Of a stretch of 38,770 nt of DNA, positions 2,755 to 8,400 are shown one piece after another. Made by a program: the position numbers and the translations under genes. Source of the DNA: Chitinophaga pinensis (lineage in GTDB: Bacteria > Bacteroidota > Bacteroidia > NS11-12g > UBA955); contig CAMDUE010000009.1 in assembly GCA_945877575.1 (NCBI GenBank), positions 71,173 through 109,942 of the forward strand, read 5' to 3'. Numbering within the stretch: position 1 is the stretch's first letter; each line of letters opens with the position of its first letter. The notes beneath the pieces are model-generated. The model was not told the DNA's origin, searched no databases, and worked only from the letters and a program-made list of their open reading frames with translations.

Positions 2755-4938
2755 ATGAATAAAAGTATATTGTTATTAGGGGCGTTGGTGTTTTTTGGAG
2801 GACAAATTCAGGCTCAAAAAGATTCAGCAAAGATTGAAGGTGTTGAAATAAAAGTTCAAAAAAGTATCATTGAAAATCAAGCAGATAAGCTGGTTTATAA
2901 TGCTTCTGAAGATATTACCAGTCAGGGACAATCTGCCAGTGACTTATTGGCGAAAGTGCCCATGGTTGATGTTGATATGGACGGCAATGTGTCGTTGAGA
3001 GGAAATAGGAACGTAAGATTTTTGGTCAATGGTAGGCCTTCAGGATTGATATCGGGTAGTCCAGCAGATGCTTTAAGGGCACTTTCAGCTGATGACATTG
3101 AGAGGATAGAAGTTATTACCAATCCTTCTTCTAAATACGATGCCGATGGTTCTGGTGGTATCATTAATATCATCATGAAAAAGAAAATTGTGGGTAACAC
3201 AGGGAATTTGCGATTGGGTATTGGTACTAGAAGTGCACATTTTGGAGGGCAATATTCATCGGTTAGGGGTAAAAATAATTTTTCGGCATCCGCTGGAGGG
3301 CATTTTTGGAGGAGTTGGGGAGATGTAGTAACCACTCGAACCAATGTAAATGCTTTAGGCGAGAATTGGGTCTTAAAGCAAAATGGTTATGCCAACAATT
3401 GGGGAGGCGGCCCAAGAATTACCCTGAATTTAGACAGGCAAATTGACGATAAACAATCGCTCGTTTTAACCGTGGGTACCAATTCTCAAATGAGAAGCAA
3501 CAAACAAGACTGGACCAACCTTCAAGGGTTGAGTGCTTTGCAAAAAACGTCTGATCAATCTGCCGATCGATTTAATTTTGGGATGGGATATGATTTAGGG
3601 TTTGATTATCGTAAGAAATTCGATAAAAAAGACCGTGAGTTTTCAATTTCAGGGTTGATGGCCATTGGCACCGGAAATGATTATTATTTAGCGAAAAGAG
3701 ATTTTTATGGAATTATTGTTACTAACGAACAAGAGCAAAGTTTGAATTCTACGTTGAACAATGAGACCTCTTTGCAAGTAGATTATACCGAACCTTTTAC
3801 ACAAGCAATTAAAGGGGAGTTTGGTGCAAAGGCCATTTTTAGAACCGTCAATTCTGATTATTTGTTTAGTTTTTATAACGATACCTTGGGTGATTTTATT
3901 GAAGCTAAAGATAGAACCAACGGCTTGGAATATTATCAGAATGTATATGCAGCCTATGGTCAATTGAATTATTCTTTCGCGAAGAAATATTCTGTGAGAG
4001 TAGGTCTAAGATACGAAATGACCGAATTTGGTGGCGCCTTAACCCAATCTCAAAAGAGTGAGTTTAAGGGCGATCCTTATGCTAATTTGGTGCCTTCTTT
4101 TAATATTTCACGGTCTATTGGGAAGGGTGGTTTTGCTCGATTCAATTACAATCGACGCATTCAGAGGCCGTCGTTATTTTATCTGAATCCATACGTAAAT
4201 ACTTCTGATCCTTTGAATGTTTCTCAAGGAAATCCATATTTGTCTCCTGAGTTTGGCGATAATTTTGAATTTTCTTTTGGGAATTATACAAAAGTGGGGG
4301 GCTATGGTTTTAATATTTTTCACAAAAGAGTTGACCAAGCCATTGAAACATACCGAACTGTAAACGCGAATGATATATATGTTACCACCTATGGTAATTT
4401 TGGATTAAACAGGCAGAATGGGTTTGATTTTAATGTGAATTTCAGAGGTAAAGGATGGTCTTTGTTTTTTAACGGTGGTGCGGGGTTGGTGCAGATTTCC
4501 ACATTGGTTGATTCTGGTGCAATTGCTGGATTATCTGTTCGTGGGGTCACCTATAGTGCAAGTCTAAGAGGAAATGTGAAATTGAGTAAAAACTGGATGT
4601 TAGAAGCATTTTCAAGGGTGAATGCTCCTAGTTTTTCTTTACAAGGATATTCACAGAATTGGTTGTTTCATACGATTGGATTTAAACGACAATTCAAGAA
4701 TGATCAAGGGGGAATTGGCTTTGGATTTGATAATCCGTTTTCGCCGGTGGTTCACTTAAAAACAGAAAATCAAGGGATTGGCTTTACCTATCTTCAAGAT
4801 AGAGAGATGAACATGTGGGGTGTGCGAATCAATTTTGATTATAAATTGGGTAAAATCAGCAGTCAGCCTGAGAATATTAGAGAGATCAAAATCAAAAACG
4901 AAGATTTGAAAAACGGCGACGGTCAAGGTGGAATGTAA
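2755..4938 (+). CDS. Outer-membrane beta-barrel protein, TonB-dependent-receptor-like
   Basis: The 727-residue product begins with a signal peptide (cleavage near residue 20, after GGQIQAQ). It then has a plug-like domain to about residue 140: 'SASDLLAKVPMV', 'LRGNRNVRFLVNGRPS' and 'IERIEVITNPSSKYDADGSG', followed by IINIIMKK, the usual plug end. The remainder is an outer-membrane beta-barrel of the 'outer membrane beta-barrel family protein' type found widely in Bacteroidetes. The N-terminal carboxypeptidase-regulatory-like domain that often precedes the plug in this family is absent or reduced to a short stretch. It starts 2 bases after the permease stop. The ligand is unknown; there is no SusD partner next to it. 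Confidence 0.87.
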   Translation: MNKSILLLGALVFFGGQIQAQKDSAKIEGVEIKVQKSIIENQADKLVYNASEDITSQGQSASDLLAKVPMVDVDMDGNVSLRGNRNVRFLVNGRPSGLISGSPADALRALSADDIERIEVITNPSSKYDADGSGGIINIIMKKKIVGNTGNLRLGIGTRSAHFGGQYSSVRGKNNFSASAGGHFWRSWGDVVTTRTNVNALGENWVLKQNGYANNWGGGPRITLNLDRQIDDKQSLVLTVGTNSQMRSNKQDWTNLQGLSALQKTSDQSADRFNFGMGYDLGFDYRKKFDKKDREFSISGLMAIGTGNDYYLAKRDFYGIIVTNEQEQSLNSTLNNETSLQVDYTEPFTQAIKGEFGAKAIFRTVNSDYLFSFYNDTLGDFIEAKDRTNGLEYYQNVYAAYGQLNYSFAKKYSVRVGLRYEMTEFGGALTQSQKSEFKGDPYANLVPSFNISRSIGKGGFARFNYNRRIQRPSLFYLNPYVNTSDPLNVSQGNPYLSPEFGDNFEFSFGNYTKVGGYGFNIFHKRVDQAIETYRTVNANDIYVTTYGNFGLNRQNGFDFNVNFRGKGWSLFFNGGAGLVQISTLVDSGAIAGLSVRGVTYSASLRGNVKLSKNWMLEAFSRVNAPSFSLQGYSQNWLFHTIGFKRQFKNDQGGIGFGFDNPFSPVVHLKTENQGIGFTYLQDREMNMWGVRINFDYKLGKISSQPENIREIKIKNEDLKNGDGQGGM

Positions 4939-4964: not shown

Positions 4965-4972
4965 TAGTTTTG
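4965..4972 (+). promoter_or_regulatory. TAnnTTTG promoter -7 element for the DUF3127 gene
   Basis: TAGTTTTG matches the Bacteroidetes -7 consensus exactly and ends 4 bases before the ATG at 4977. No clear -33 TTTG is seen upstream. The spacing would place transcription start at or within a few bases of the start codon. Confidence 0.55.
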
Positions 4973-4976
4973 TGAT

Positions 4977-5378
4977 ATGGACATTCAAGGTAAAATTGTA
5001 CAAATACTTCCCAAGCAGACAGGAGAAGGCAAAAACGGAACGTGGGAAAAGCAAGATTATATTTTAGAAACCCAGGCCCAATATCCCAAAAAGGTATGTT
5101 TTTCAGTTTGGGGCGTAAAAATTTCTCAATACAACATTCAAATGGGTGAATTTGTAAGTTTAGGAGTGGATGTGGAAAGTCGCGAATACAATGGAAGATG
5201 GTATACAGATCTTAAAGCTTGGAAAGTGGATAGACCGGGTGCGGCTCCAATGAGCAGCAACACAGGAACATCGACTAGCAATCAACAAGCCAATGATCCT
5301 TTTGCAGATACGGCCCAAGTAAGCGACCCATTTGCATCTTCTTCGAACTCCGAAGAGGCAGATGATTTGCCATTCTAA
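4977..5378 (+). CDS. DUF3127 family protein with SSB-like acidic C-terminal tail
   Basis: The protein has 133 residues. Residues 1-90 match the DUF3127 pattern (start MDIQGKIVQILPKQTGEGKN, then 'WEKQDYILET', 'YNGRWYTDLKAWKV'), which reads as a small OB-like beta-barrel. After this comes a Ser/Thr/Asn/Gln-rich low-complexity linker (about residues 91-122) and an acidic end, EEADDLPF. This linker-plus-tip layout is that of bacterial single-stranded-DNA-binding proteins, whose DDIPF-type tip recruits replication and repair enzymes. The likeness to SSB is my reading of the sequence; a nucleic-acid role for this family is inference. The gene stands alone, 38 bases after the barrel gene, with its own TAnnTTTG element. 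Confidence 0.8.
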   Translation: MDIQGKIVQILPKQTGEGKNGTWEKQDYILETQAQYPKKVCFSVWGVKISQYNIQMGEFVSLGVDVESREYNGRWYTDLKAWKVDRPGAAPMSSNTGTSTSNQQANDPFADTAQVSDPFASSSNSEEADDLPF

Positions 5379-5460: not shown

Positions 5461-8400
5461 ATGAAATTAAACCAATACAAAAAAATATTCCTTCTCGTCT
5501 TATTGTCAATTTCTTCAGTGGTGCTTCAAGCTACAGATTATTATTTGAGTACAACGGGAGACGACACTAAAGACGGGTTGAGCCCAGCAAACGCATGGAA
5601 AACTTTGTCAAAAGCGGTAAGTACGCTAACTAACAATGATAAATTGTTTATAGCTGCCGGAAACTATACAGGTAGTTTAAATGTGGGTGTTACCCTGTCG
5701 GTTTCTGTTGACGGAACGGTAAGAGTTGACCATCTAAGAATGAACGCGGGTTCTTTGGCCTTAGAGGGAAGTAGTAGTGGTTTATTGAATGTAAAAGATT
5801 CACTTGTTTTGAGCAATGGCATTATCACCGTGAGCACTACCACCGCAAGATTACATGCGTTGGCAACTTGTGGTTTAAAGGGTGGTAATAAAAATAGTTA
5901 TGTGATAGGTGGTTATGCGGTGCATAATAGTGTTTCTAGCGGTAAGGCATTTATGTGGCATGTGGGTGTACTAAATCAATACCGCCCCGTCAAGATGGAA
6001 GGCTTCTTTCAGCCATCTTTGAGTGATCATTGGTTTCATGCGGAGTATTTTTACACAACGCCTCCAGCATCACCTACTTTACCATCTACCACCAGAAATA
6101 TTTCGAAAACTGGATATTGGTTTGTTAAGTCTTCAGCGGGTCCAACAGAAGCGAGAGCTTTTGAAATGTCTTTTTATTACGATTCAGTAATTGCCGATGA
6201 CGGGGTATATGATGCTCCCCAATTGCAACTTTTAAACTCCAATGGTACAAAGCCATGGACCATCAATAAAACTGGAGGTACTTTTGATCGTAAAGGCTAC
6301 ATTACTTCTAACGCAACTGATAGTTTGAAGTTTTATGTTTTAGGGAATGCTAAAGGCGGTTCATCTTTTCAGGGAGGTGTTAATACATTAGGCGATAAAA
6401 CCAATCCCTTTGCAAAATTCACCTTTGAAACTAAAGCCTTGTGCGTGGGAGATACCATTTACTTTAAAGATCAATCCCAAAATGCTGCGGGCGTTAGTTA
6501 TACTTGGAAATTTGGTGATGAGAGCTTGACAGGTTCATTGGCAGGTAAAAACGTACTTTCTACCGGACCCACCAGTAAAAATCCAGTTCATATTTACAAC
6601 GGAGCGGGTAATTTCAGGGTTCGCTTGGAAATAAGAAACGTAAGCAATGTGATTGATACCTCAATTCTTATTCTTTCTGTTGGTGTTCGACCAAAATTGA
6701 CGGGCTTAAATGCTATTCAGTTTTATCGTTATCCCATGAACGCAATAGATACCTTTGATGATGCAACTATTTGTCAAGGACAACGCTTTTGGGCAATTGA
6801 TAACTATGATATCACCTTTGGTTATAATCCCAACAATGATTATGTGACAAATCTTGAGATTAAAGTGGTGGGTGTAACTCCTGAGCCCAAGCTTCAAACC
6901 GTGATGCCGATTCCGGGGATGGATACTCTAAAAACTACTATATCTCAGCCTGGCGCTTACCAAATATTCGCTACTAGAACTACGAATAAAGGCTGTAAGG
7001 CGTTTGACGTAGCAGATTTGATTATTTATGCAACTCCAGGAGTTGCATTTGTTTGGAGTAAACAATGTGAAACTCCTCCCAATACAAAATTTTTAGTAAC
7101 TAATATGACGGGTAATCCTTCATTTACTAACAAAATTCAAAAATGGCGTTGGGAATACGAGGGTCAGAACATTACTGGAGATGTGGTTAAAAATCCGTCA
7201 ACTAGGAGTTATTTGTTTTCAGGTGGTCATCCTGGGGTTAATATGGTCAAGTTGATTATGGAAACCAACTTTGGCTGTATAGATTCATTCAGCGATCCGG
7301 TATATATTTATCCCAAACCAATAATTGGATTTAACTTAGATAAATTGTGTGATGGTGAAGTGATGGAAGCTGATGCCACCAGTTCTCAGATCAAATTTGG
7401 CGGAAGTATAGATGATTATGTTTGGAAATTTCATTTAACAGGTGGCGGATTGCAAGACACAGGAAATCAGGTTACTTATCAGTATCCAGGGCCTGGTTTA
7501 TATTCGAATAAATTGACCTTGTTTTCTTATAATAACGGATTGCCTATTTGTAGGGCTGACTCAACTTTTACGGTGAGAATTCACCCAAAGCCAACTCCAA
7601 GTTATCAAATAAAAGAGGTTTGCTTTGGAGATTCAACTTCGTTGCGGAGGGTGATTGATCGTTATCCTCACCGTGACAGTATGTTATATTATTGGTTCTT
7701 AGATTACAATTATATTGGCAACGATACTAATTTCAAGTATAAATTGCCAAAGCCAGGTAATTATGCATTAACGATGCGCGCATCATCCTTGGCGGGTTGT
7801 AGAGATTCTGCGGTTGGAGTTTTGCGGTCATTCTACGTTCCCGATGTGTCATTCAATCTCGATATGACGGTTCCTGGAAATGATACATTTCAGTGTTTAA
7901 ATTGGAACAGATATACTTTTGATTACAATTTTGGTCTAGACCCTTACGATACCATACGAAACTCGTATTGGGATTTTGGAGATAGCATTGTAGAGTCTCC
8001 AGTCACCAATAATTACCACGGCTATACAAAAGCCGACACATTTACAGTTAAATTATTTGTTGACAACGTGAATGGTTGTGCAGACAGTGCTTACCAAACC
8101 GTTTATGTTTGGCCTTCTCCGGTGGCTGGTTTCACCCACGAAGGAATTTGTATGCCAGATACGGTTGTCTTCACCGATACCATTTCAACCTCGGTTGATC
8201 CCATAGTCAAGCGATTTTGGGATTTTGGTAATGGAAAGTCTGATACCAACAATGTGAATATTGCTCGAAATCTATACATGGACGCAACTCCGGTTACTGT
8301 TACCTATGTGATTACATCTGATCACGGTTGTGTAGATACTGCAGTTAAAGTTTTGGATTCTCTGATAGATATTCCGAAGGCGAATTGGCAAATCATTGCC

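Follow-up and report, generated by a model that had tools for sequence, protein, structure and literature searches.

DUF3127, an SSB-like protein of Bacteroidota by predicted fold and conserved C-terminal tip

Introduction

The bacterial OB-fold proteins closest to the one described here are PriB and the single-stranded-DNA-binding protein, SSB. PriB is not known to carry an SSB-Ct tail; its gene in E. coli sits amid ribosomal protein genes. SSB carries a C-terminal acidic tip, described in PMC10164576 as a key docking site in bacterial genome maintenance and as the place where most of the SSB partners studied dock. The tip of F. psychrophilum SSB reads DLPF according to PMC3991886. An SSB with hits to both an SSB-type and a DUF3127 domain, gp25 of phage AAS23, is presented in PMC8004638.

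Here we analysed a stretch of 38,770 nucleotides (the window) in which one open reading frame codes for a DUF3127 protein. The original prediction, drawn from the sequence of the window, had seen in this protein the layout of SSB and had proposed that it is either an SSB paralogue or a competitor for SSB partners. We compared its predicted fold, its C-terminus, its distribution and its phage relatives with those of SSB.

Results

The DUF3127 gene and its product

A Pfam search assigned residues 2-84 of the window protein to DUF3127 (PF11325) with 109.5 bits against a cut-off of 27 (Table 1). No other Pfam family was matched even at E 10, the SSB profile PF00436 included, and no NCBIfam model matched. 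The whole chain, residues 1-133, was covered by PHROG 4932, named 'single strand DNA binding protein', and residues 57-133 were matched by another SSB family, PHROG 378 (E 3e-4). The frame closes with SEEADDLPF followed by TAA. The host genome (2.5 Mb in 30 contigs, 99.9% complete) holds one DUF3127 gene and two true SSBs.

Table 1. Features of the DUF3127 gene, with positions in the window and the evidence for each
Feature	Position	Strand	Evidence
DUF3127 gene, SSB-like protein, 133 aa	4977..5378	+	ATG ORF; PF11325 E 9.7e-32; PHROG 4932 E 1.2e-18
Predicted OB-fold domain, residues 1-86	4977..5234	+	AlphaFold2 model; nearest PDB chains are SSB/PriB
Predicted disordered linker, residues 87-126	5235..5354	+	pLDDT block means 46-58 over residues 91-130
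SSB-Ct-like acidic tip EADDLPF, residues 127-133	5355..5375	+	top-residue frequency; PF end in 92/94

The same-strand neighbouring open reading frames encode 727 and 1212 aa. No conserved operon partner was found around bacterial DUF3127 in the best 80 of 584 relatives, where the commonest neighbour family occurred at just 12 of 80 loci and at varying offsets, and the bacterial gene context therefore tells little. In several genomes (G076 contig C8, G269 contig C1 and several of family f5) DUF3127 happens to have an SSB gene within about 5-55 kb. The linker of the window protein contains two DPF repeats, NDPFAD and SDPFAS (window 5292-5375), which resemble the NPFA motif in the tail of a Staphylococcus phage SSB ending NPFAGGEINVEDDDLPF. 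A motif upstream of the gene at 4965-4972, TANNTTTG, which resembles a promoter consensus, was discarded as evidence because the window has 43 matches to it against 47 expected.

Predicted fold

An AlphaFold2 model of the window protein, built on an alignment of 109 proteins, reached a mean pLDDT of 80.1. Eighty residues scored at least 90, nearly all of them within residues 1-86, where most positions stand at about 95, and the remainder of the chain is disordered. Strands were placed at residues 2-10, 14-18, 21-32, 39-45, 59-71 and 74-85 and a short helix at 48-52, giving a DUF3127 core of six strands with the helix ahead of the last two long ones. On this model the N-terminal domain is an OB fold, as had been anticipated.

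The top Foldseek match was B. subtilis SsbA (probability 1.00, E 8.9e-5). Further SSBs and PriBs ran through its list, together with Teb1, MCM OB domains and an RNA-editing protein. A second structure aligner placed Rim1 at the top (6cqk_B, Z 11.9, rmsd 1.8 over 83 aligned residues), followed by the Salinibacter ruber SSB 5odn_D (Z 11.4) and the PriBs 1woc_C (Z 11.3) and 2pnh_A (Z 11.2). Among the matches listed, 48 of 50 are SSB or PriB, the other two being MCM OB domains (Z 10.8 and 10.7), and the identity of the window protein to the aligned structures is 7-19%. By its predicted fold the protein belongs to the SSB/PriB class, although the MCM domains show that this match is not exclusive. 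Matches that differ by less than 1 in Z were counted as tied, so that SSB and PriB cannot be told apart by fold alone. Two named matches in a viral structure library, at ranks 2 and 9, were DUF3127 proteins, and phage SSBs came after them. Sequence searches of solved structures with the window protein returned no relative, the best matches by phmmer (E 0.37) and by profile search (E 0.61) both being unrelated.

Sequence relation to SSB

Aligned one-to-one by hhalign, the full-length profiles of SSB and DUF3127 gave a probability of 89.9% (E 1.7e-6), the OB domains alone gave 5.7%, and controls with one reversed and ten column-shuffled profiles gave 0.06-0.31%. The case for common ancestry of DUF3127 and SSB that these sequence comparisons make is weak. 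The proposal of an SSB paralogue is thus borne out in part: the protein is SSB-like and carries an SSB-type tip, but the sequence backs shared descent weakly.

Pfam SSB matched one of the 109 relatives of the window protein (E 0.02), and a DUF3127 protein of genome G290 scored 20.9 bits on PF00436, under the cut-off of 26. The commonest weak Pfam match was REPA_OB_2, an RPA-type OB domain, in 12 of the 109 relatives (best E 0.0019); ssDBP, Phage_DNA_bind and PC4 also appeared among the weak matches, as did the unrelated Flavi_glycoprot (2 of 109). F, W, Y or H occupies positions 23, 36, 71, 75, 76 and 82 of the window protein in 91-100% of the 94 DUF3127 sequences from bacteria, and W45, which the profile aligns to an SSB aromatic, corresponds to an aromatic residue in 35% of them.

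Distribution in Bacteroidota

A search of 395 genomes sampled across the phylum found DUF3127 in 222. Among the same-class genomes listed, the window's own set aside, it was present in 95 of 97 and not found in G292 and G391; 153 genomes with no match stand outside this list, and the list order points to all of them belonging to other classes. A single copy is the rule (92 of the 95), with more copies in G045, G351 and G394. One of 14 control genomes, Bacteroides ihuae, gave a match. Every genome searched with PF00436 had at least one true SSB beside DUF3127 (52/52, 23/23 and 59/59).

Conservation of the C-terminal tip

All 80 DUF3127 proteins at the bacterial genome loci read, the best 80 of 584 confirmed relatives and so biased toward close ones, end in PF; five of these records (L061, L067, L077, L093 and L094) bear alphaproteobacterial titles. 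In a broader set sampled across the phylum the PF end was kept by 92 of 94 proteins and in 89 of 91 genomes read, the two exceptions, in G001 and G006, both belonging to family f14 outside the window's class. Over the 94 proteins the mean top-residue frequency reached 0.885 in the tip (residues 129-133), compared with 0.50 in the OB domain and 0.29 across residues 90-125 of the linker. The tip is the most conserved part of DUF3127, above the OB domain. Among closed neighbouring open reading frames of at least 70 aa, a PF end was carried by 0 of 641 at bacterial loci and 6 of 594 at viral loci; set against 0 of 641 neighbours, ends of 80/80 and 92/94 argue that the DUF3127 tip has not arisen by chance. 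In the host genome the DNA pattern for [DE][DE]xPF plus stop gave two forward matches, one of which runs on into TGG without a stop, leaving DUF3127 as the sole gene with that pattern among the forward matches.

Other reading frames with such an end were seen as well. At L346 (G007) an 85-aa frame on the minus strand (1504-1758), presumably the exonuclease VII small subunit from the look of its sequence, ends NEDLPF, and at L369 (G331) a frame of 147 aa (1075-1515) ends EDDDLPF.

The SSB layout of OB-like domain, low-complexity linker and EEADDLPF tip that the original prediction had read from the window is supported by the predicted OB fold, the disordered linker and the end of the open reading frame, and conservation of the tail is general in the bacterial proteins read, where the prediction would have failed on a tail absent from most family members. 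A conserved tip behind a variable linker is also what would be expected of an SSB, since in E. coli SSB the linker could largely be deleted with the tip kept, according to PMC10164576.

Loss of the tip from SSBs in the same genomes

The ends of every PF00436 SSB and of DUF3127 were read in 44 genomes. Both kinds of protein carry a tip in 34 of these, DUF3127 alone in eight, SSB alone in two and neither in none; some of the genomes were picked after the pattern in family f4 (below) had been seen, and these proportions are no population estimates. Forty-nine genomes had entered the count and five were dropped: G178 was not fully read, G292 and G391 are without DUF3127, and the DUF3127 of G011 and G016 was unread. 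The empty 'neither' cell is not significant alone, as eight and two losses in 44 genomes lead to an expectation of about 0.4. In 27 further genomes whose SSBs were partly read, a tipped SSB was present in each.

Tail-less SSBs are a feature of family f4, possibly the Weeksellaceae. In all eight genomes its housekeeping SSB is 109-111 aa long and stops where the OB domain does, with no tail, and its DUF3127 ends DDLPF. The f4 SSBs cluster (support 0.90) with short second SSBs from family f5 that likewise lack a tail, and because of this grouping the long tailed SSB seems to have been lost in f4. No other PF00436 match is present in six of the eight genomes, four of which are single-contig assemblies; the remaining two, G095 and G277, have an extra divergent SSB ending DDLPF. 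In six of the eight f4 genomes no SSB-type protein other than DUF3127 was found to carry a tip. The same holds for G007, whose only SSB ends NPEDNE, and for G099, where neither of the two SSBs has a tip. The five SSBs checked for a frameshift (G099, G007, G292, G269 and G033) show no xxPF end in any of the three frames around the stop, which speaks against frameshifting as the reason for their missing tips.

A second pattern is found in the window's own genus, g1, in which 12 genomes were searched for SSBs. The SSB type that in the window's genome is encoded just downstream of a mutY-like gene was read in ten genomes and has no PF tip in any of them; the other type, read in nine, ends xxPF in each. 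These ten SSBs without a tail fall into a single clade (support 0.975); elsewhere in the class, an SSB with a mutY-like gene upstream is usually tipped. The g1 SSB loci with no PF tip are L002, L286-L288, L290, L292, L295, L296, L298 and L301.

Candidate partners of the tip

All 20 genomes searched, among them the eight of f4, gave matches to PriA and RecO; five of the 20 RecO matches, that of the window's genome among them, fall under the curated cut-off. In Klebsiella, five PriA residues contact the SSB tip (PMC5531588), and we read this pocket at E. coli positions, taken as the published Klebsiella numbers plus one, an offset set from the residues found there. Both aromatics of the pocket are conserved in every genome (20 of 20); at the lysine position K or R stands in 18 of 20, and at the glutamine position K in 19 of 20. 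The column of Arg697 is basic in 2 of 20 and the column before it in 16 of 20, the alignment being uncertain at that place. This partial conservation of the pocket lends modest support to recognition of the tip by PriA, and f4 is not set apart from the other genomes.

The replicative helicase DnaB was also seen to end in PF, after a variable tail, in 25 of 30 Bacteroidota genomes (L404-L433; for instance DDDDDFPF and DDEDDVPF), and E. coli K-12 DnaB ends QYDDE. The exceptions are G281 and the four genomes read of genus g1 (L428, L429, L431 and L432). In f4, DnaB has a DDxPF-like tip in seven of eight genomes, so that DUF3127 is not the only tip of the proteome there. The tip-reading machinery of genus g1 may have shifted, with the tip lost from one SSB type and from DnaB.

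Phage and viral members

By tblastn, 44 phage records match DUF3127, mostly from Flavobacterium, Cellulophaga and Bacteroides phages, and four Staphylococcus phage records match weakly via residues 52-133. A PF end closes 53 of 79 closed viral DUF3127 proteins. Another 17 have no tail and stop at AWKI, immediately behind the OB domain; many of these are near-identical (loci such as L163, L165, L166, L168 and L171-L178). The PF end is present in 32 of the 42 viral members retained in the alignment.

In phage phi13:2, DUF3127 is encoded near RecT-like, DnaA-like and DNA replication genes, and in phage 11b near Erf. In morran9-1 the gene adjoins a ParB-like gene, lies near a primase/helicase and is annotated 'single strand DNA binding protein' from PF11325. 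The LoVEphage gene, annotated DUF3127, has direct neighbours with no clear replication role, and an MmcB-like repair protein is encoded about 2 kb off. A neighbour census took in 142 proteins at 37 viral loci, and 25 of its 151 PHROG families were listed. Among these, the commonest named families are exonucleases (8, 7 and 6 members, possibly overlapping), followed by the NinB/Orf mediator (3), Erf (2 and 2) and primase/helicase (2 and 2), next to nameless families and a small number of virion, terminase and integrase type.

A small profile built from seven SSBs detected no SSB in 11b, in morran9-1 or in the 63.4 of 72.4 kb of phi13:2 that were read. Across 80 viral loci the same profile found one SSB, in L195; this contig encodes a tipless true SSB (6421-6756) and a DUF3127 protein (3377-3754) ending DDDLPF, the same division as in f4.

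Discussion

DUF3127 is SSB-like by fold and tail and stands outside Pfam's SSB family. We favour, with about two chances in three, the reading that it is a second SSB, which would bind ssDNA, recruit the partners of the SSB tip and share the job with SSB, and which would serve Bacteroidota phages as their own SSB. Its SSB/PriB-type OB fold would bind ssDNA, and the SSB-Ct-type tip, evident in the sequence at the end of a flexible tail, would dock SSB-recognising proteins such as PriA, RecO and RecG; with such docking DUF3127 would take on part of the recruiting of SSB, alongside the housekeeping protein. In lineages with tipless SSBs, DUF3127 is the main or only tip carrier among the SSB-type proteins found, and the recruiting function may have been handed over to it. 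For the phages, gene context and existing annotation point to use of DUF3127 as their SSB.

The tip missing from the sole SSB found in six of eight f4 genomes needs explaining, and DUF3127 is a candidate answer. A tentative extension, which we regard as possible rather than probable, is that in f4 and the scattered genomes the two jobs of SSB are split, the tail-less SSB coating ssDNA and the tip of DUF3127 recruiting PriA, RecO and others; the tip would then be, in Bacteroidota, a movable tag of SSB, DUF3127 and DnaB, gained or lost per protein. If DUF3127 is indeed a second SSB, a function would be given to a protein present in 95 of the 97 other same-class genomes listed, together with a reason for phages to carry it.

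Since PriB structures tie with SSBs (Z 11.3 and 11.2) and PriA was present in each of the 20 genomes searched, DUF3127 could act in the manner of PriB in replication restart: as a dimer it would link PriA to ssDNA through its OB folds, gain a further hold on PriA by the tip, and not coat ssDNA in general. We consider this unlikely: PriB is not known to have the SSB-Ct tail, whereas the tip is the most conserved part of DUF3127, and priB lies among ribosomal protein genes in E. coli, whereas the neighbours here are the frames of 727 and 1212 aa. Ligands other than ssDNA (RNA, a nucleotide or a protein) are a further thought, with the protein merely tethered to the DNA machinery by its tip. The OB fold accommodates a wide range of ligands, and sharing it does not establish function; an RNA-editing protein and MCM domains occur among the structural matches, and the weak Pfam matches reach unrelated families such as Flavi_glycoprot. 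The commonest of those weak matches is nevertheless REPA_OB_2, with ssDBP, Phage_DNA_bind, PC4 and SSB also represented, and the phage genes around DUF3127 include recombination and replication genes, which makes another ligand quite improbable.

The least likely account is that of a decoy or regulator, in which a copied tip competes with SSB for its partners and has no positive role of its own. It was contained in the original prediction as a competitor for SSB partners, and it would suit an SSB-like tip in genomes most of which have a tipped SSB as well (34 of 44). It fits poorly, however, with a near-universal protein that is mostly single-copy (92 of the 95 same-class genomes with it, among those listed), with eight of the 44 genomes, where every PF00436 SSB read is tipless, and with three phages that carry DUF3127 and no detected SSB.

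Our literature search, which left subscription papers and preprints aside, found among the papers listed no description of cellular DUF3127, of its tip or of the tail-less SSBs of f4, and nothing on SSB tips or paralogues in Bacteroidetes or on an SSB-Ct-like tip of DnaB. The SSB annotation of phage members is already known; the tail-less SSBs of f4 together with a tipped DUF3127 are, as far as this search shows, new.

Compared with known systems, DUF3127 shares with bacterial SSB (PF00436, TIGR00621) the SSB-class OB fold, the disordered linker, the C-terminal acidic xxPF tip and the short length, but it escapes the SSB profile, has 7-19% identity to the listed structures and coexists with a true SSB. 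To the phage DUF3127 proteins of PHROG 4932 it is alike over its full length, and several of these, in Flavobacterium, Cellulophaga and Bacteroides phages, already bear the label SSB; the label rests on similarity (PF11325 in morran9-1), and elsewhere the proteins are called hypothetical or DUF3127. PriB has an OB fold of the same class (Z 11.3), but differs in having no known SSB tip and in its place among ribosomal protein genes. Like the tail-less SSB paralogues of the SsbB type, DUF3127 is a second SSB-type protein beside the main one, but in f4 the roles are reversed, SSB being tail-less while DUF3127 carries the tip.
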